DNA of 16,665 nucleotides, from positions 1 through 16,665 of the forward strand of contig JAITAM010000053.1 of NCBI GenBank assembly GCA_031284085.1, in the 5' to 3' direction. Under the pieces are notes generated by a model. That model was not told where the DNA came from, ran no database searches, and saw only the letters and a list, made by a program, of their open reading frames with translations. Both the position numbers and the translations under genes were made by a program. How positions within the stretch are numbered: position 1 is the stretch's first letter; every line of letters starts with the position of its first letter. Origin of the DNA: Spirochaetaceae bacterium. Its GTDB lineage: Bacteria; Spirochaetota; Spirochaetia; Treponematales; Breznakiellaceae. Positions 2,008 through 16,464 of this stretch are shown piece by piece.

Positions 2008-2929
2008 GAATTTCTTCCTTTGATAGCAAAACTTCTACAGCATCCCGTATGTCGTCCCTCATCGTAACAACAAACGAACGCACCTCTTCCATCGCTCCTA
2101 AAAGCGCCTCTCTTTTACCCATTCCTTCTATTCTCTCATTTTTTTTCCATGCCTTCAAGACCGCTCTTGACGCGTTAACCACCCCGCCGTTTCCGCGGCC
2201 GTCCAAAAGCAGCGCCGCTTCTTTGCCGCCGCCCCCTTGAACGCCGTAACCGGGGATCAAAAAAAACAAGTCTTTGTACCGTTTGCGTATAGCCGCCGCC
2301 TCTTCGCTTTCGGTGCATCCAACAACCGCACCGAACAGAGCATAGCCGCACTCACCGCGGCAGGAGGAGGCAAGGGCGCGCAGTTTATCCCCTACAGCCT
2401 CGTAAACGCTCCCCCCAGCCAAAAGCTTCTGACATTGAAAATCCTGCCTGCCTGCGTTAGAGGTGCGCATCAAGACAAAAGCGCCTTTCCCGCTTTCCTG
2501 CGCGGCCGAAACCCACGGTGCAAGTGAATCCATGCCCATATATGCGGATAACGTTACAAAGTCGGCCTCAAAATCTCCTGAATAGTGAGCCTTAGCGTAA
2601 CGCGCAGCAGTATCGGCAATATCTCCACGCTTTACATCGGCTATAATGAGCAGTTTCTTGAACCTAATGTACGAGAGTGTTTTGGCGTAAAGCTCTAAGC
2701 CTTTAAGTCCGAGCGCCTCGTAATAGGCAATCTGTACTTTATAGCACGCTGTAATATCCTCTGTAGCATCGACGACCGCGCAGTTATAGTTCAGGATGGC
2801 CTGCATGGGGTCATAAGCGGCTGCTATAAGGGGATGCGGCAAATATTCGAGTGCTGTATCCAAGCCGACGCATACATTTCCGTATTTTTCTACTTTATGA
2901 TAAAGGGTATCGAGAGCTGTCATAAGCAT
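1994..2929 (-). CDS. pyrF: Orotidine 5'-phosphate decarboxylase, type 2
   Basis: Decarboxylates OMP to UMP, the last step of de novo pyrimidine synthesis. The 311-aa length and motifs fit the longer type 2 subfamily. VGLDTALEYLP (21-31) holds the first substrate-binding Asp, K64 lies in CYKVQIAYYE, and the catalytic cluster ADVKRGDI (97-104) supplies D98, K100 and D103. PGYGVQGGGG (226-235) and NASRAVL (252-258) form the phosphate-binding region. Two starts are possible, ATG at 2927-2929 or ATG at 2921-2923 two codons later; neither has a clear Shine-Dalgarno site. A minus-strand promoter lies just upstream (2952-2982). The gene overlaps the following repeat-protein gene by 14 bp, and leuA comes after that. 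No other pyr genes are present. Confidence 0.95.
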   Translation of the reverse strand: MLMTALDTLYHKVEKYGNVCVGLDTALEYLPHPLIAAAYDPMQAILNYNCAVVDATEDITACYKVQIAYYEALGLKGLELYAKTLSYIRFKKLLIIADVKRGDIADTAARYAKAHYSGDFEADFVTLSAYMGMDSLAPWVSAAQESGKGAFVLMRTSNAGRQDFQCQKLLAGGSVYEAVGDKLRALASSCRGECGYALFGAVVGCTESEEAAAIRKRYKDLFFLIPGYGVQGGGGKEAALLLDGRGNGGVVNASRAVLKAWKKNERIEGMGKREALLGAMEEVRSFVVTMRDDIRDAVEVLLSKEEIHAKR

Positions 2930-2951
2930 TGTTATAGTAACATATATTGAG

Positions 2952-2982
2952 ATAGTATGCCAGTAATTTTTTTTTATTGCAA
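2952..2982 (-). promoter_or_regulatory. Candidate sigma-70 promoter for pyrF
   Basis: Read on the minus strand, a TTGCAA -35 element (2977-2982) and a CATACT -10 element (2954-2959) are 17 bp apart. The spacer carries a nine-A tract. Transcription would start about 20 bases before the pyrF ATG. Confidence 0.5.
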
Positions 2983-3028
2983 GGGTAAATTTTTGATAAT
3001 TTTTTATAAAAAAACCGAGTATAAGGGA

Positions 3029-3058
3029 TTGACATACTTTTGGGGTATTACCTATAGT
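3029..3058 (+). promoter_or_regulatory. Strong sigma-70-like promoter, divergent from pyrF
   Basis: A perfect TTGACA (3029-3034) and TATAGT (3053-3058) are separated by 18 bp. This is the best promoter match in the window. No coding gene follows for about 600 bp. The start point would be near 3064-3065, at the beginning of the candidate small RNA. Confidence 0.7.
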
Positions 3059-3063
3059 ATAGA

Positions 3064-3191
3064 GGCTCCTCCTCGTAGTTAACGGTATTTCCGAAGGGTT
3101 GGGTAGCAGTAAGAAACGACTGAAAAATATCCTTAAAGAATCGCATAGCTGTCATTACAGGGAGTAAACGGTACGAGGGGGAGTTTTTTTT
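3064..3191 (+). ncRNA. Candidate structured small RNA with closing stem and U-tract
   Basis: The segment starts at the expected transcription start of a strong promoter and ends with eight T (3184-3191). The two ends pair: 3066-3077 (CTCCTCCTCGTA) with 3172-3183 (TACGAGGGGGAG), 12 bp with a single G-U wobble. Inside the closing stem, smaller hairpins are possible: CGG/CCG at 3083-3085 and 3091-3093; GGGTA/TATCC plus CAGT/ACTG between 3101 and 3132; CTGT/ACAG at 3149-3152 and 3157-3160. No open frame or ribosome site runs through it. The architecture resembles housekeeping RNAs with a terminal closing stem (6S-like, SRP-like) or a multi-branched riboswitch. I do not see the SRP tip motif, a tRNA-like end, or any riboswitch core I can name. 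It could also be an attenuator for something downstream. Confidence 0.5.
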
Positions 3192-3235
3192 GAATAGGGA
3201 GCCTTTTTGGAGGCGGCTTAGGGGCCGTTTTAGGT

Positions 3236-3487
3236 GGCGGGAGGCTTAAAAGATAGGGCGGGAGGCTTAAAAGACATGGCGGGAGGCTTGGAAGACATGG
3301 CGGGAGAGTCAGAAGACATGGCGGGAGAGTCAAAAGACATGGCGGGAGGCTTGGAAGACATGGCGGGAGAGTCAAAAGACATGGCGGGAGAGTCAGAAGA
3401 CATGGCGGGAGGCTTAGAAAACATGGCAAGAGGCTTGGAAAACATGGCGGGAGAGTCAGAAAACATGGCGGGAGAGTCTCCCGCCAT
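3236..3487 (+). repeat. 21-bp minisatellite, 12 units of two types
   Basis: Twelve contiguous 21-bp units begin GGCGGGA. Units come in two versions: type A continues GGCTTGGAAGACAT and type B continues GAGTCAGAAGACAT, each with small A/G changes. The order is A A A B B A B B A A B B, the last B being cut into by a palindrome. Unit 10 has GGCAAGA at its start. Because 21 is divisible by 3, several frames stay open on both strands, so the long open frames here are not evidence of coding. The G content is concentrated on the plus strand. Between the small RNA and this array (3192-3235) I see only G-rich sequence resembling degenerate units. Further partial units follow to about 3530. Confidence 0.95.
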
Positions 3488-3492
3488 GTTTT
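3460..3492. terminator. 33-bp palindrome closing the minisatellite, possible bidirectional terminator
   Basis: AAAACATGGCGGGAGA (3460-3475) is followed by one G and then its exact reverse complement (3477-3492). The left arm is the end of unit 11 and the start of unit 12; the right arm is the same sequence inverted. As RNA it forms a 15-bp GC-rich stem flanked by A4 and T4, so it could terminate transcription in either direction, although the U run is short. A terminator is an inference; the palindrome itself is certain. Confidence 0.6.
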
Positions 3493-3513
3493 GAGAGTTA
3501 AAAAACATGGCGG

Positions 3514-3541
3514 GAGGCGCAGGCGGGAGGGTCTGCGCCTC
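3514..3541. other. Inverted repeat, 9-bp stem
   Basis: GAGGCGCAG (3514-3522) and CTGCGCCTC (3533-3541) are perfect inverted copies around a 10-base loop built from a minisatellite fragment. No T run follows. It is followed at once by a second 9-bp inverted repeat, GTGCGGCTT (3542-3550) with AAGCCGCAC (3565-3573), which overlaps the -35 region of the next promoter. Confidence 0.6.
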
Positions 3542-3559
3542 GTGCGGCTTTGCGGGGAC

Positions 3560-3590
3560 TTTACAAGCCGCACAAATTATTATATATAAT
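3560..3590 (+). promoter_or_regulatory. Promoter for the 3657 gene
   Basis: TTTACA (3560-3565) serves as -35, with TATATA/TATAAT (3583-3590) as -10 at 17-19 bp spacing. The right arm of the GTGCGGCTT...AAGCCGCAC inverted repeat (3542-3573) covers the -35 element and could act as an operator (inference). The predicted start near 3597 is directly before the leader hairpin. Confidence 0.55.
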
Positions 3591-3597
3591 AAAGCGT

Positions 3598-3628
3598 CTA
3601 TACGGTATCGCAGAGCCGATACCGATAG
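3598..3628 (+). promoter_or_regulatory. 5' leader hairpin upstream of the 3657 gene
   Basis: CTAT-A-CGGTATCG (3598-3610) pairs with CGATACCG-ATAG (3617-3628): 12 base pairs with one bulged A and a six-base loop CAGAGC. It would sit at the extreme 5' end of the transcript, where such stems commonly stabilise mRNA. It could instead be a protein-binding operator. It leaves the Shine-Dalgarno site (AGGAAG, 3646-3651) free. Confidence 0.55.
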
Positions 3629-3656
3629 TGCTTTATCTTAAAAAAAGGAAGTATGT

Positions 3657-4313
3657 ATGGCTGATTATGTTCCATCAAAAGATGCCGATTTTTCAGAGTG
3701 GGTTAAGCTGCTTTTATTGTACGTGCAGGCTCATTTGACTGCATTTAATATCTCATCCGAAGCTTTGCAGCCCGTGCTTGCGCTGCAAATTGCATTTGAC
3801 GCGGCTTATGCAAAAACACTCGATCCCAACAAAGGCTCGGTTGATGTCGCTGAGAAAAACCGCACACGCCAAGACTTGACACGGGTTCTGCGCGCCTTTA
3901 TCAAAGGATTCCTCTTGTACAACCCTTTGGTAAGCAGCAACGACCGCGATAAAATGAAGATACCCACCCATGCAACCACCCATTCCCCAGTCCCCAAACC
4001 CTCGACATTCCCTGAGTACAGCCTAGACAGCTCAGTACCTAACAGGCTCGCACTGCACTTTTGGGACTCCGCCACTAAGCGCAGAGGAAAACCAAGAGGC
4101 GTTCACGGAGCCGAAATACGCTGGGAAATAAAAGAAGAGCCGCCCATCAAAGCGGAAGACTTGTTCAACTCAGATTTTGCAACAAAAACCCCCTGCATCT
4201 TTGATTTCACAGGCGATAAGCGGGGAAAAACGGTCTATTTCTGCGCACGTTGGGAAAACCCTACAGGTTCTAAAGGGCCGTGGGGAACTATCGCCAACGC
4301 CATCATCCCTTAA
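3657..4313 (+). CDS. Conserved-type hypothetical protein with fibronectin-III-like C-terminus
   Basis: A 218-aa protein of unknown function. The N-terminal half (about 1-95) opens with VPSKDADFSEWV and is predicted helical. A Pro-rich linker (about 102-120, TTHSPVPKPSTFPE) leads to a beta-rich C-terminal domain (about 122-218) with features of a fibronectin type III fold: LALHFWD, GAEIRWEIKEEPP, GKTVYFCARWENPTGSKGPWG and a final IP. From memory, this layout resembles a group of uncharacterised bacterial proteins of about 200 aa found in Bacteroidetes, Planctomycetes and treponemes; I cannot confirm that here. There is no signal peptide. The ATG at 3657 has AGGAAG five bases upstream; an overlapping ATG at 3653 is out of frame. 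The gene has its own promoter and leader hairpin, and lies 90 bp before the transporter gene. Confidence 0.8.
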   Translation: MADYVPSKDADFSEWVKLLLLYVQAHLTAFNISSEALQPVLALQIAFDAAYAKTLDPNKGSVDVAEKNRTRQDLTRVLRAFIKGFLLYNPLVSSNDRDKMKIPTHATTHSPVPKPSTFPEYSLDSSVPNRLALHFWDSATKRRGKPRGVHGAEIRWEIKEEPPIKAEDLFNSDFATKTPCIFDFTGDKRGKTVYFCARWENPTGSKGPWGTIANAIIP

Positions 4314-4403
4314 AACCCTTCACCGTAAGAAGCGCTGCAGTACGGCCGCACAAAAAGCCCTTCTGCCAAAGCGCAAAAGCCTCCAATAAGGTCAATCAAC
4401 ACT

Positions 4404-5660
4404 ATGGAAAAAGAAAATGTCAGTTTCAGAAACTATCTAGGCATAACATTCTTAATCGGCTTCGGCTTCTTAACTATGGGGCTTATGGACCCCCTCTACG
4501 ACACCTATATTCCCATATTTCTAAAGCGCTACATACAATCTAATGCGGCGGTGGGCGGCATTATGACGGTGGACAATGTCCTGCAGTTGCTGCTCATTCC
4601 GATCATTTCTATATGGTCTGACCGCACCAGAACAAAAATAGGGCGGCGTATGCCGTTCATCATCGTCATGCTGCCAATATCCGCGGTTATTTTTATTTTC
4701 ATACCGAGCGTTGCACGAATATCCCTCTTGGCCCTCATAAGCATTATATTTGTCTTCAATATATTCAAAACATCCGTGCGCGGCCCCGTTGTCGCGCTCA
4801 TGCCCGACACAGTTCCGCCCTCTTTCCGTTCAGAGGCAAACGGAGTAATCAATATGATGGGCGGCATAGGCTTAATCATCAGCACCCTAGCCCTAGCCCG
4901 GCTCATGGACGAGGAGGAGCGCCTGCCGTTTTTTGTCGCGGGGCTTTGCATCATCATAGCGGTAACCGTTCTCTTTATCTTTGTTAAAGAGCGGGTTCCG
5001 AGCGGCAAAAAAGAAGAGAAGACAGCCGTCCTCAAGGCCGTGAAGCAAGCCTTCTCGACCGGCGGTTCAAGCGTCCCCCGCATTCTTATCTCGTTATTTT
5101 TCTGGTTTATGGCCTACGAAGGCGTGAAGCCTTTCTTGGGCTTATACTTGACTGAGTCCCTCGGCGTATCGGAGGGCAGCGCAGCCTTAGCGCAGGGGGT
5201 AGCCGGCATCTCAAGCGTTATCATGGCCGTCCCGGCAGGCTACCTAGCTCACAGATTCGGGCGCAGAAACTATATATGTATGAACCTTATCATGCTGGCC
5301 GCCATTCTCTTTCTTATACCGCTTGGGGGACTCGTGGTGAACATGGCGGGCATCCCTTCATCGGCCGCCCTTGTCTTGTTTTTAATATTGATGTTTCTTT
5401 ACGGCGCCGTATGGATGGGAGTGGTCGTTAATTCGTTTCCTATGCTTTGGCAAATGGCCTCGTTCGGGACCATAGGCGTTTACACTGGCTTGTACTACAC
5501 CTTTAGTCAAGGTGCGGCTATTTTAGCCCCGCCGATTACTGGTGCAATTATAGACTTTTTTGATTACAAGGGCATTTTTATTTTCGGTGGTCTTTGTATG
5601 GTTGCTGCTCTATTCACGATGCGGAAGGTAAGAGCCGGAGAAGTAACTCGTAGCGCCTAG
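4404..5660 (+). CDS. MFS transporter, GPH/sugar-cation symporter-like
   Basis: A 418-aa integral membrane protein with about 12 hydrophobic segments, acting in the inner membrane. The signature between helices 2 and 3, SDRTRTKIGRRMPFI (72-86), is typical of the glycoside-pentoside-hexuronide and sucrose-transporter-like branch of the major facilitator superfamily. MPDTVPPSFRSEANGVINMM, in the helix 4-5 region, is a second hallmark of this branch. A charged loop (about residues 200-225, KERVPSGKKEEK) separates the two halves. A sugar or glycoside taken up with a cation is the usual substrate of the family; the actual substrate cannot be read from sequence. The ribosome site is weak (AAGG about 12 bases from the ATG). 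It follows the 3657 gene by 90 bp without a clear terminator and may be cotranscribed with it. Confidence 0.88.
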   Translation: MEKENVSFRNYLGITFLIGFGFLTMGLMDPLYDTYIPIFLKRYIQSNAAVGGIMTVDNVLQLLLIPIISIWSDRTRTKIGRRMPFIIVMLPISAVIFIFIPSVARISLLALISIIFVFNIFKTSVRGPVVALMPDTVPPSFRSEANGVINMMGGIGLIISTLALARLMDEEERLPFFVAGLCIIIAVTVLFIFVKERVPSGKKEEKTAVLKAVKQAFSTGGSSVPRILISLFFWFMAYEGVKPFLGLYLTESLGVSEGSAALAQGVAGISSVIMAVPAGYLAHRFGRRNYICMNLIMLAAILFLIPLGGLVVNMAGIPSSAALVLFLILMFLYGAVWMGVVVNSFPMLWQMASFGTIGVYTGLYYTFSQGAAILAPPITGAIIDFFDYKGIFIFGGLCMVAALFTMRKVRAGEVTRSA

Positions 5661-5675
5661 CTCTTCTCTCAGGGT

Positions 5676-5990
5676 AGCGCTCTTGTAGCTGCGAAGTACA
5701 GATAAACGGCAGTCTTTCCAGCGGCGTTAGGTACAAAGCATAGCTAGCTGTCCATGAGAAGCGCTGTTGTAGCTGTGAAGTGCAGATAAACGGCAGTCTT
5801 TCCGGCAGCGGCAGGCATAAAGCATAGTTAGCTGTCCATGAGAAGCGCTGTTAGAGCTGGAAAGTGCAGATAAACGGCAGTCTTTCCAGCGGCGCTAGGC
5901 ACAAAGTATAGTTAGCTGTCCATGAAGAGCAGATCGGCGGCGATATTTCCGGCAGTGGCAGGCACAAAGCATAGTCAGCTGTCCATGAGA
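5676..5990 (+). repeat. 84-bp tandem repeats in front of lysC
   Basis: Three full 84-bp units (5676-5759, 5760-5843, 5844-5927) are followed by a shortened 63-bp unit (5928-5990) missing exactly 21 bp. A further start of a unit (AGCGCCGTGCAG) merges into the lysC leader. Conserved blocks are GCAGATAAACGGCAGTCTTT, a CCGGCAGCGGCAGG-like stretch, and TTAGCTGTCCATGAGAAGCG. Both strands are interrupted by stops, so it is not coding. The array fills nearly all of the 369 bp between the transporter and lysC. No lysine riboswitch is recognisable. Its position makes a regulatory role possible but unproven. Confidence 0.92.
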
Positions 5991-6029
5991 AGCGCCGTGC
6001 AGTATGTATATAAAGATGGAGGAAACACC

Positions 6030-7364
6030 ATGATTACTATGAAGTTTGGAGGCAGTTCCGTTGCAGATGCAAATAGGATACGCCACGTTGTTGACATTGT
6101 CGACATGCACCGAGAGCGCACGCCGGTCGTGGTGCTTTCGGCGATGGCGGACACAACGGATCATCTGCTTGAGGCGGCGAACACCGCAATACAAACAGGC
6201 GTCGTTGGTATTGCTAAAATAACCGGGCTGCACATAAAAACAATGCAGGAGCTGGGTGTAGAGTGGATAGAAGGCGAACTGGCAATACTTTTTAATGAAT
6301 TGCATGCCTTGGTTACCGGCATAGCTCTTACCAGAGAATTAACGGGGCGTGCCAAGGATCATATTGTGTCTTTTGGGGAGCGCCTTTCGGTGCGTGTTGT
6401 TGCCGCATACTTCAACAAGCTGGACATTCAGGCTAAAGCCATTGATGCGTGGGATATAGGTTTTGTTTCGGACTCTAACTTTACCGCCGCAGATCTTTTC
6501 AAGGAAAGTTGGACTGCTATTCCAAAGTACATAAATCCTGTTTTGGAGGCCGGTTTTCTCCCGGTGGTAACTGGTTTTATTGCCAAAGACGGTTCGGGTA
6601 GAATCACTACATTAGGACGCGGCGGGTCGGACAGGAGTGCGACTATTATTGCCGCTGCATGCGGCGCTGAAGAAGCGCAGGTATGGAAAGATGTCGACGG
6701 TATATTGACGGCTGATCCTCGTATTGTTCCGGATGCCCGCCCGGTAAAAGAAGTTACCTACGATGAAGCTGCTGAATTGGCTTACTTTGGCGCTCAGGTA
6801 CTGCATCCGCGCGCCATGCGTCCTTGTATGAATACCGGCACGCCGGTATTGGTTAAGAATTCGTATAACCCTCGTGCGCCGGGGACGCGCATAGTACCGA
6901 CATTGGCAGAGCGTCCGCAACCAGTCGTTGCAATTAGCACGCGGAAAAACATACTTTTGGTTGATATTGTATCGACTCGTATGTTAGGGCAAGCGGGATT
7001 TTTGTCCGGCGTATTCTTGTGCTTTGCTCAACAAGGTATTTCTGTGGATATGGTTGCTACCAGTGAAGTGTCCATCTCGCTGACTTTGGATATAGCCTAT
7101 GACATCACCGCATTAACTGAAGAACTTTCTAAGATCGCCTCGGTAGCAGTTAAAACCGGCAAAGCCATTGTAACTATTATTGGAAATGTACGCCGATCTT
7201 CTGAAATATTAAAGAGAGCTTTCGGGTTGTGCGAAAAACTCAATATACAAGTCCAGATGATCTCTCAAGGGGCAAGCAAGGTCAATATTAGCTTTATTGT
7301 AAATGAAGAGCAAGCAACAGAGGTAGTTCGAGGATTGCATCAGGAATTTTTTGGTATTTCATGA
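6030..7364 (+). CDS. lysC: Aspartate kinase, monofunctional
   Basis: Phosphorylates aspartate, opening the pathway to lysine, threonine, methionine and diaminopimelate. It has 444 residues from the chosen ATG, which has GGAGG (6018-6022) seven bases upstream; the frame is open further upstream into the 84-bp repeats, but that part is repeat sequence. The kinase domain shows MKFGGSSV (4-11), SFGERLS (114-120), TTLGRGGSDRSAT (193-205) and VWKDVDGILTADPRIV (218-233). Two ACT domains follow (about 308-370 and 375-444), including QAGFLSGVFLCF and MISQGASKVNISFIV, the usual site of feedback inhibition by lysine or threonine (family knowledge). Length and lack of a dehydrogenase domain fit the monofunctional E. 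coli LysC class. A GAAAAGCTTTTG palindrome spans the stop, but no clear terminator follows. Confidence 0.96.
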   Translation: MITMKFGGSSVADANRIRHVVDIVDMHRERTPVVVLSAMADTTDHLLEAANTAIQTGVVGIAKITGLHIKTMQELGVEWIEGELAILFNELHALVTGIALTRELTGRAKDHIVSFGERLSVRVVAAYFNKLDIQAKAIDAWDIGFVSDSNFTAADLFKESWTAIPKYINPVLEAGFLPVVTGFIAKDGSGRITTLGRGGSDRSATIIAAACGAEEAQVWKDVDGILTADPRIVPDARPVKEVTYDEAAELAYFGAQVLHPRAMRPCMNTGTPVLVKNSYNPRAPGTRIVPTLAERPQPVVAISTRKNILLVDIVSTRMLGQAGFLSGVFLCFAQQGISVDMVATSEVSISLTLDIAYDITALTEELSKIASVAVKTGKAIVTIIGNVRRSSEILKRAFGLCEKLNIQVQMISQGASKVNISFIVNEEQATEVVRGLHQEFFGIS

Positions 7365-7495
7365 AAAGCTTTTGTTGTTCAAGCGTATACAAAGCAAAGC
7401 GTTCCGCCACTCTTCACAAGAGCAGTCGCTCATGCGTCTTAAAAAGAGTGTATTGTATTTTACAACAGTATCAATGCAGTCAAAGCTTTCATCTT

Positions 7496-8416
7496 TTAGT
7501 AAGATACTCTGTTTCTTCCGGATTTCTTAGCATTGTATAGATGAACATCAGCACGAGTTATAAACTCTTCAATACTATCATTTTCTTGAGGAATAAGAGA
7601 TGCAACCCCTAAACTTATAGTAACGGTGGTGATAATTTTTCCATCGGCAGTAGGAACTCGTAACGCTTCCACAGCGGCGCGTAGCTTTTCAGCAACATGT
7701 ACCGCACCATCTAGATTGGTATCCGGCAATATTACCGCAAATTCTTCACCGCCAATCCGAGCGCACATATCAGTAGGACGCATCACCGTTGTTGCTAATA
7801 CATGAGCCACCGCTTTAAGAAGAGCATCGCCATGAGGATGGCCATAGGTATCGTTATAACTCTTGAATTTATCAATATCAATCATTAAAGATGAAAGAGG
7901 CTGATGTTCGCGCAAAGCCCGCCGCCATTCTATGACAATACGGTCGTCAAAATACCGGCGATTAGGAATGTTAGTAAGTCCGTCCATTATCCCACGTTGC
8001 TCAACAATACGAAATTGTTGTACTATTTGTATATGCGTTTTTATTCGTGCCTTTAACACTCTTGTATTGAATGGTATTTTAATATAATCCACTGCACCAA
8101 GTAGAAATCCCTTTTCTTCATTATCTATATCATTGAAGCTGCTAACAATAATAACCGGAATATGTGATATTTCCGATATATTTTTCATGGTTGACAGCAG
8201 TTCAAATCCATTCATATCAGACGTAACAATATAAAGTAAAATTAAATCTGGTTTTTCTTTAATAGCTTGCTCTAGAGCAACCATATCTAATTTTGCAAAA
8301 GAAATAGTGTAATCAGGAGAAAGAAGAGTATCCACTATCATTGACTCTGATTTTTCATCAGCAATTACTAAAATGTTATTCCTTTCTATAGGAATTTCTT
8401 TTAAGAAAATATCCAT
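7496..8416 (-). CDS. Diguanylate cyclase with degenerate receiver domain
   Basis: A 306-aa cytoplasmic signalling protein with an N-terminal receiver domain (about 13-130) and a C-terminal GGDEF domain (about 142-306). The GGDEF domain looks active: GGEEF at 222-226, the metal-binding Asp of MIDIDKFK at 180, and an intact inhibitory I-site RPTD (213-216) five residues before GGEEF. It should make cyclic di-GMP from GTP with product inhibition. The receiver is unusual. The phospho-acceptor Asp is replaced by Tyr62 (ILLYIVTSDMNGFEL), and the N-terminal acidic pair reads A-D (19-20). The conserved Lys113 and Ser92/Ser93 remain. Classical phosphorelay control is therefore unlikely. It stands alone, convergent with lysC and upstream in direction from nothing obvious. 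The ribosome site is weak. Confidence 0.93.
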   Translation of the reverse strand: MDIFLKEIPIERNNILVIADEKSESMIVDTLLSPDYTISFAKLDMVALEQAIKEKPDLILLYIVTSDMNGFELLSTMKNISEISHIPVIIVSSFNDIDNEEKGFLLGAVDYIKIPFNTRVLKARIKTHIQIVQQFRIVEQRGIMDGLTNIPNRRYFDDRIVIEWRRALREHQPLSSLMIDIDKFKSYNDTYGHPHGDALLKAVAHVLATTVMRPTDMCARIGGEEFAVILPDTNLDGAVHVAEKLRAAVEALRVPTADGKIITTVTISLGVASLIPQENDSIEEFITRADVHLYNAKKSGRNRVSY

Positions 8417-9046
8417 CTGTACCGACTTTTCACCACCAAAATTAGAATACTATTTTTTTCATCGGAATCTTCTTCTTAAAAATCTTTTGGGTAGAAATAT
8501 TAAGAATAATAAGATAGATAGACAAAAATCTATCGTTGTTCCGGCACCGTCAAAACATTATTTTTTCATGGCTATTGAAGCTCTTACTATATAGTATCAT
8601 TCGACATTTATTAAAATCTCTTGTTGCTGATCGTCTTAACCTTAAAGTTATGTAAGGTAGTCTATCATACTCTCATAGCTTTTGTAAATAGATATTCGGT
8701 GATAAAACAAGATAAAAACTATTTGCTCTCGATTGAAGGATTGGCATCAAGACATTTGGATACTATAAAAAGCATAAACATGGCCTTAAAAATCTTCAAG
8801 TCAACAATACTGGAGGCACAGAAACAAAGACATTCCTAGCAATGTTCCGTATGATTCTGGAAGATAACCTGATGGAAAAGATAAGACGAGCGGCATTTCA
8901 GGCTAAAAATAAAATATTTTTAGTCTACGCGGAAAAGACAGGCATACCGAAATACCGTACTCAGCTCAGAACAAAACTAGTTCCTTAAAATAATTACACA
9001 GAGTAGCGGTACAAAAAGAGGGAGTTGACCAGAACATCAATATACG
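8417..9046. other. AT-rich spacer between fliP and the cyclase gene
   Basis: I see no recognisable gene over 630 bp and no fliQ-like sequence on the minus strand after fliP. Small structures are present: GATAGAT (8513-8519) with ATCTATC (8528-8534), and a 10-bp palindrome ACTATATAGT (8586-8595). Short plus-strand open frames exist at 8621-8839 and 8842-8988. The first has no ribosome site or plausible composition; the second is listed separately. The stretch could be the decayed remains of genes. Confidence 0.5.
8842..8988 (+). CDS. Possible 48-residue orphan peptide or gene remnant
   Basis: The frame encodes 48 residues: a helical, charged first half (MILEDNLMEKIRRAAFQAKN), then IFLVYAEKTGIPKYR and a basic end. 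The residue composition looks protein-like, but there is no good ribosome site (only a weak GGAG about 28 bases upstream) and no recognised family. It may be a fragment of a decayed gene. I am not confident that it is expressed. Confidence 0.2.
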   Translation: MFRMILEDNLMEKIRRAAFQAKNKIFLVYAEKTGIPKYRTQLRTKLVP

Positions 9047-15912: not shown

Positions 15913-16464
15913 ATGCCATGTTTTCCCCGTTATCTATGTATGGCATCGCATTATTCGCCACGAGGCCGTACTGATTTAGGCCTTACCTATTATATCTTCT
16001 CGGTAGTTAATCGTTTCCTCTTTGAACTCGATCCTGACAGGATGAAAGAGCTGTTCCTCGTTATAGTTGAGGAAGCACTAACGGTAAAAGGTTTCAAGTT
16101 CAAACTTTGGAACTTTTGTATCATGTCGAATCACTTCCATTTTCTTATCACTCCAGCAGAAGGACAGAGTCTTTCTGAGATATTGAAATGGATTAAGATG
16201 GTATTTGCGATTCGGTGGAACAAAATGAACCACAAGACAGGACATTTCTGGGGAGATAGGTTCTATTCGCGGGTAATAACGGACGAAAAGGACTTCTGGG
16301 CTGTATATAATTACATTGATCAGAACCCTGTTGAAGCCGGGCTTGTAAAAGAGCCGTGTGAATGGAAATACAGCGGAGCGTATCATCGGGAACACGGGAT
16401 TACAAGAATTATCTCTTTCGTGGACGACACAATCTTGAAGTCAGAATTGAAGGCACTCCAATGA
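15913..16464 (+). CDS. REP-associated Y1 transposase (RAYT)
   Basis: A 183-aa HUH endonuclease of the Y1_Tnp (PF01797) class, which nicks single-stranded DNA at hairpins. The metal-binding HUH motif is His74-Phe75-His76 in MSNHFHFLI (71-79). A probable catalytic Tyr (134, in YIDQNPVEAGLV) follows, with the family segments SLSEILKWIKMVFAIRWNK (86-104) and TGHFWGDRFYSRVI (109-122) between. All key residues are present, so the enzyme may be active. Starts at 15913 or at ATG 15940 (Met10) are both possible and neither has a clear ribosome site. It is bracketed by 67-bp direct repeats and by AGGTC(A/T)GACCT palindromes, the first right-hand copy starting only four bases after the stop. RAYTs are usually single, domesticated genes that maintain dispersed REP sequences rather than classical insertion sequences (family knowledge). 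Confidence 0.92.
   Translation: MPCFPRYLCMASHYSPRGRTDLGLTYYIFSVVNRFLFELDPDRMKELFLVIVEEALTVKGFKFKLWNFCIMSNHFHFLITPAEGQSLSEILKWIKMVFAIRWNKMNHKTGHFWGDRFYSRVITDEKDFWAVYNYIDQNPVEAGLVKEPCEWKYSGAYHREHGITRIISFVDDTILKSELKALQ

Follow-up and report, generated by a model that had tools for sequence, protein, structure and literature searches.

A consensus-like promoter beside pyrF leads into approximately 125 nt that are enclosed by a long inverted repeat and end in a run of T residues. This arrangement raises the question of whether the locus is a small RNA gene in its own right, a leader of the next gene, a divergent housekeeping RNA or a product of chance. An earlier note on this DNA had proposed an independent small RNA with a structured, junction-like interior. 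We analysed the locus within a window of 16,665 nucleotides from an uncultured treponeme, which is contig 14 of an incomplete source genome (67.6%); all positions refer to this window.

The outer architecture, consisting of the promoter, the stem and the T run, is real and was found just as the earlier note had described it. A sigma-70-type promoter on the plus strand (3029-3058) consisted of the -35 element TTGACA (3029-3034), a spacer of 18 nt and the -10 element TATAGT (3053-3058). It matched 11 of 12 consensus positions, lay downstream of AT-rich DNA (26-28% GC at 2900-3049) and scored best among the three promoter-like sites found in 2800-3700, where 1.4 were expected. The pairing scan placed the arms of a closing stem on the plus strand at 3065-3077, beginning 7 nt past the -10 element, and at 3172-3184. 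The previously described pairing of 3066-3077 with 3172-3183 comprised 12 pairs in a row, including a single G-U pair, and an extra G-U pair (3065/3184) extended it to 13. The terminator tract of eight T residues (T8) was read from the plus-strand sequence at 3184-3191. The ordinary terminator scan was blank at this stem because it permits loops of 3-8 only. A possible alternative 3' partner for this 5' end, overlooked in the earlier note, was also observed on the plus strand (3197-3208): positions 3197-3206 could form 10 pairs with 3061-3070, two of them G-U, next to a T run at 3204-3208. Taken as a plus-strand unit, the candidate small RNA gene occupies 3062-3191, with a predicted start near 3064 and a predicted end within the T run.

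The whole candidate RNA folded at -39.4 kcal/mol (z -2.91), and none of 200 shuffled sequences reached a value as low. When the 94-nt interior (3078-3171, plus strand) was folded alone, the z-score was +0.24 and 116 of 200 shuffles were equally or more stable, indicating that the excess stability of the whole RNA belonged to the closing stem. The predicted fold of the whole RNA showed the closing stem and one inner helix. The three smaller hairpins and the junction-like fold claimed previously were not supported, as the interior carried no more structure than chance gives. This lack of excess structure counts against a small RNA gene; it is also compatible with an RNA that has no structural role, or with a long-range inverted repeat that arose by chance. 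When only the first 105-112 nt were folded, the 5' arm could pair with GGGAG at approximately 3160-3164. As for coding capacity, four predicted frames of at least 20 aa touched the region: 41 aa (2957-3082, plus strand), 35 aa (3048-3155, minus strand), 22 aa with a TTG start (3099-3167, plus strand) and a repeat-driven frame of 146 aa (3133-3573, minus strand). The statement that the region has no coding capacity was roughly right, with these four frames as its qualification.

The Rfam covariance search of the whole window yielded no family at its gathering cut-off, and riboswitch families gave no match at cut-off in the window, which agreed with the earlier failure to name an RNA family. At E<=10 on 2950-3300, seven rows were obtained, the best of which was the PyrR binding site (RF00515; 18.3 bits, E 3.5). 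This weak row lies near pyrF, but its matched part was AT-rich DNA and the terminator, it fell far below the 54-bit cut-off, and pyrF is divergent from the candidate on the other strand. On the same stretch and at the same threshold, there was no row for SRP RNA, for Y RNA (Ro-associated) or for 6S RNA (RF00013), and 6S RNA also had no row at gathering in the window. Across the order, the Rfam 6S model, which exceeded its cut-off in only 4 of 14 controls and is therefore weak, gave no match over cut-off in any of 58 genomes, and with laxer filters 6S RNA was unrecognised in 13 genomes. These results indicated that 6S RNA in this order is either missing or escapes recognition. The search for Hfq was negative in all 24 genomes examined and positive in 5 of 14 controls.

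To place the candidate among its relatives, positions 3020-3200 were searched by blastn against 195 genomes of the family. Only the genome of origin and one chance locus were recovered; inspected by eye, the latter (G104, E 0.0028) corresponded to the beginning of a recG-like gene. Used as the query in an identical search, the genome's own SRP RNA reached 158 of the 195 genomes, among them the three other genomes of the genus, of which G002 matched at 92%; the broad conservation expected of a core RNA was thus not seen for the candidate. Among 58 genomes searched by blastn at E<=10, the strongest matches beyond the genome of origin were 19-24 nt long with E values of 0.0094 and above; a G002 row (20 nt, E 0.04) was rejected, its surroundings being without a promoter or a T run. 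A single-sequence covariance model of the candidate (R1) gave 39 rows in the 195 family genomes, one of which was the candidate, and no convincing row was found there, in the genus or in the part of G001 searched. At the 15 loci, out of these 39 rows, that were read with open frames, each overlapped a stop-to-stop frame of at least 70 aa (a weak criterion), and no pair of promoter and T run was seen by eye. Among the R1 rows rejected, L101 lay just past a tRNA-like sequence, and L103 was a short terminator hairpin to which only the stem had been fitted. The best G001 row (L325; 24.4 bits, E 0.0018 for 301,854 bases) was attributed to chance; it lay immediately before an ABC-ATPase-like frame, and inspection by eye revealed no separate promoter for it.

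The R1 model was also run on 75 of 80 named pyrF loci, omitting L166, L200, L201, L206 and L207 (titles Clostridium or Oscillospiraceae), and returned six rows, none convincing (best E 0.029). By eye, no similar element was seen in the pyrF flanks of 20 loci, eight of these with the side adjusted for strand. The named pyrF relatives were mostly uncultured Treponema and Spirochaetaceae records, which, judging from their sample codes, we take to be mostly of termite-gut origin. Plasmids and phages gave no match to the candidate at E<=1e-5, and two exact candidate patterns gave no result in viral contigs. Nothing bearing on the candidate RNA was found in the accessible portions of the published literature, PMC7160235 included. 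The genomes are incomplete (G001 80%, G002 81%), so absence from any single one is not certain.

The neighbourhood was compared with the matching site in G002, which had the same order of leuA (83% identity), a repeat ORF (65%), pyrF (67%), fliP (96%), a FliN/FliY-like gene (92%), fliM (100%) and fliL (96%). The pyrF-fliP interval measured approximately 6.1 kb in the window (2930-9046); in G002 it spanned approximately 2.3 kb and held a Y1 transposase gene, and the 20-kb stretch of G002 showed no match to the RNA region, the 218-aa ORF, the MFS gene, the aspartokinase or the GGDEF gene. Since the G002 interval differs and is without the element, the candidate sits in a variable interval beside pyrF. 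The window has a Y1 transposase gene of its own at 15913-16464. Between leuA and pyrF, the window carries a frame (1717-2007) with a 15-residue repeat and a recurrent WYR motif, which occupies the same place in G002 at 65% identity.

Downstream of the candidate, the ORF at 3657-4313 encodes 218 aa and belongs to a multicopy family with no Pfam or NCBIfam match, which was found in 13 of 39 genomes, with up to 36 matches in one; G002 holds other copies elsewhere. Upstream of the ORF in the window, we observed a tandem array at 3235-3478. We examined 20 ORF copies taken from 30 fetched loci (L066-L095) of 10 genomes, omitting 10 partial or cut loci. A tandem array with a period of 21, 42, 63 or 84 lay within 500 nt upstream in 17 of the 20, with a unit sequence that differed between copies, and a downstream array accompanied 2 of the 20. 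For random G001 windows, an array with any period from 8 upwards was present in 29 of 200. The G001 stretches L215-L332 (1,675,220 bases) contained 441 short tandem arrays, 212 with a multiple of 21 as the smallest listed period (186 exactly 21), 61 with period 23 and 34 with period 22. Nothing relevant on such arrays was found in the literature searched. The leader of the ORF (window 3590-3660) also contains a hairpin with an 8-bp perfect core, CGGTATCG/CGATACCG, with a fold of -21.6 kcal/mol for 70 nt.

The SRP RNA gene of the same genome (G000:C202), identified by Rfam (RF00169), provided a comparison for the design of the candidate. It combined a promoter matching 11 of 12 positions with a 16-pair end-to-end stem and T5, and was similar in length. 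The candidate is built in the same way, which makes a stand-alone RNA gene plausible. The two are not alike in sequence (837 of 1000 shuffles scored as high), and the SRP RNA differs in being far better folded than its shuffles (z -6.16) and in its presence across the family. A wider architecture scan was applied to L001-L214 (1,359,850 bases, overlaps included), requiring a promoter of at least 10/12 with at least 9 pairs, or at least 9/12 with at least 11 pairs, plus T4 or more. It returned three rows, namely the candidate twice, once for each 3' partner, and the own SRP gene. An earlier, narrower scan (1,042,909 bases of the same loci) had returned the candidate and the SRP gene, along with one palindromic repeat locus that had no promoter. 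In the congener G001 (1,675,220 bases), scanned in two parts with slightly different T-run limits, 16 rows were obtained: the one with a promoter of at least 10/12 was the SRP gene of G001, two had promoters of 9/12 (L243 and L306), and the rest were stems without a promoter, several in tandem repeats. The wider scan recovered only one of six SRP loci (L209-L214), the own one, indicating that it is specific rather than sensitive and that its lack of analogues elsewhere means little.

The chance level of the architecture was estimated on shuffled windows. A stem of at least 12 pairs followed by T6 or more occurred once in 60 dinucleotide-shuffled windows on both strands. The combination of a promoter of at least 10/12, a stem of at least 10 pairs and a T-rich end occurred in 3 of 400 shuffled windows, at thresholds laxer than the actual 11/12, 13 pairs and T8. 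Because these figures are window-wide and the candidate was chosen by eye from the whole window, they are supportive rather than conclusive.

The alternative readings can now be weighed against these results. The locus may represent a chance or decaying combination of a promoter-like site beside a long inverted repeat, with no RNA gene at all; a relic left behind in the variable interval would be one example. The unstructured interior, the variability of the interval and the lack of a homologue in the 194 other family genomes, one chance match apart, are consistent with this, as are the occurrence of the laxer combination in 3 of 400 shuffled windows and the choice of the candidate as the best spot of the whole window. 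We nevertheless consider it rather unlikely, since the actual values, including an arm beginning 7 nt after the -10 element, exceed the lax thresholds and the design is that of the genome's own SRP gene. It is also conceivable, although we judge it unlikely, that the element acts in cis, as a leader or attenuator of the 218-aa ORF, in which the stem with T8 would stop transcription unless the 5' arm were held, in which case transcription would read through the array into the gene. The ORF is the next gene downstream on the same strand, and the 5' arm could pair elsewhere, with GGGAG near 3160 or with 3197-3206. What makes such a leader less likely is the distance of 465 nt, with the 21-bp array, from T8 to the next start codon, together with the ORF's own TTTACA...TATATAAT stretch, seen by eye and unlisted in the promoter scan of 2800-3700, and its strong leader hairpin. 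Furthermore, no such element was found at the fetched paralogue loci, either by the architecture scan, whose sensitivity is low, or by blastn, and no riboswitch family reached its cut-off.

The housekeeping 6S RNA imitates an open promoter and binds to RNA polymerase, and a divergent member would resemble the candidate in outline, through the closing stem, the open centre and a hairpin inside it. Its place in the order is unfilled by Rfam, and positions 3083-3092 bear what we take to be a short likeness to the bubble of the E. coli 6S RNA. However, 6S RNA is usually longer than approximately 125 nt, no 6S row appeared even at E<=10, and the candidate was unfound in relatives in which SRP RNA is found and missing from the matching interval of G002. 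The divergent 6S RNA that the earlier note had kept in view is thereby weakened to a very improbable reading, even with no 6S RNA otherwise recognised in the order, and other core RNAs are likewise unlikely. Finally, the open frame at 3099-3167 might make the locus a small mRNA for a 22-aa basic peptide from TTG 3099, or a dual-function RNA. This seems scarcely credible, as the start is TTG, the purine-rich stretch abuts it without the usual spacing, chance alone is expected to yield frames this small, and there is no homologue in which conservation could be followed.

The reading we favour, to which we give about an even chance, is that the locus is a candidate species-restricted, free-standing small RNA gene of approximately 125 nt, whose closing stem would serve as its terminator and whose product might act by antisense pairing without Hfq. 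As sequence signals, it carries its own promoter and terminator and no coding gene. The SRP-like design, the gap of 465 nt and a repeat array before the next start codon, and the finding of nothing similar at the paralogue loci favour an independent small RNA, so that this part of the earlier proposal is retained while the structured, junction-like interior is not. Since a core RNA should be as easily found in relatives as SRP RNA is, the candidate is more readily taken for an accessory RNA than for a housekeeping RNA that had escaped notice.

For this small RNA gene, we infer transcription, termination by the closing stem, stability and action in trans. RNA polymerase would start near 3064 from the consensus promoter and produce a transcript of approximately 125 nt. 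During transcription, the 5' arm might pair with GGGAG at approximately 3160-3164 and then be captured by 3172-3184. The last 12-13 nt would thus pair with the first nucleotides of the transcript, and this long-range stem, together with U8, would cause termination and leave both RNA ends locked in a helix. The interior of approximately 94 nt is predicted to be largely flexible and open, offering stretches for base pairing. Antisense pairing with one or more mRNAs in trans is the most likely action on these predictions; given the lack of a recognised Hfq in all 24 genomes, target pairing would proceed unaided or with another protein. The same 5' end may pair with 3197-3206 before its T run, forming a possible back-up terminator. 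A more elaborate version, in which the two alternative terminators (3172-3184 with T8, and 3197-3206 with its T run) share the 5' end, and a 5'-end binder decides whether a short or a longer RNA is made or the polymerase continues through the 21-bp array into the gene, seems to us quite improbable.

Orphan, lineage-restricted intergenic small RNAs with their own promoter and an intrinsic-type terminator are a known kind. The candidate shares with them the promoter, a short body without a convincing gene, the T-tract end, the intergenic site and the narrow distribution. In contrast to their local 3' hairpin, its terminator stem joins both RNA ends across approximately 94 nt. Judged by its sequence features, the candidate would be of this ordinary kind, with no known family and no homologue found. 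Being isolated and restricted to one species, it is of modest broader importance, and the 21-nt-period arrays beside the ORF family may prove to merit closer study than the candidate does. Should it be transcribed, a group in which Hfq has not been found would possess a stand-alone small RNA, and its two-ended terminator design, shared with the SRP RNA gene, could help in the search for other RNA genes among these little-studied bacteria.
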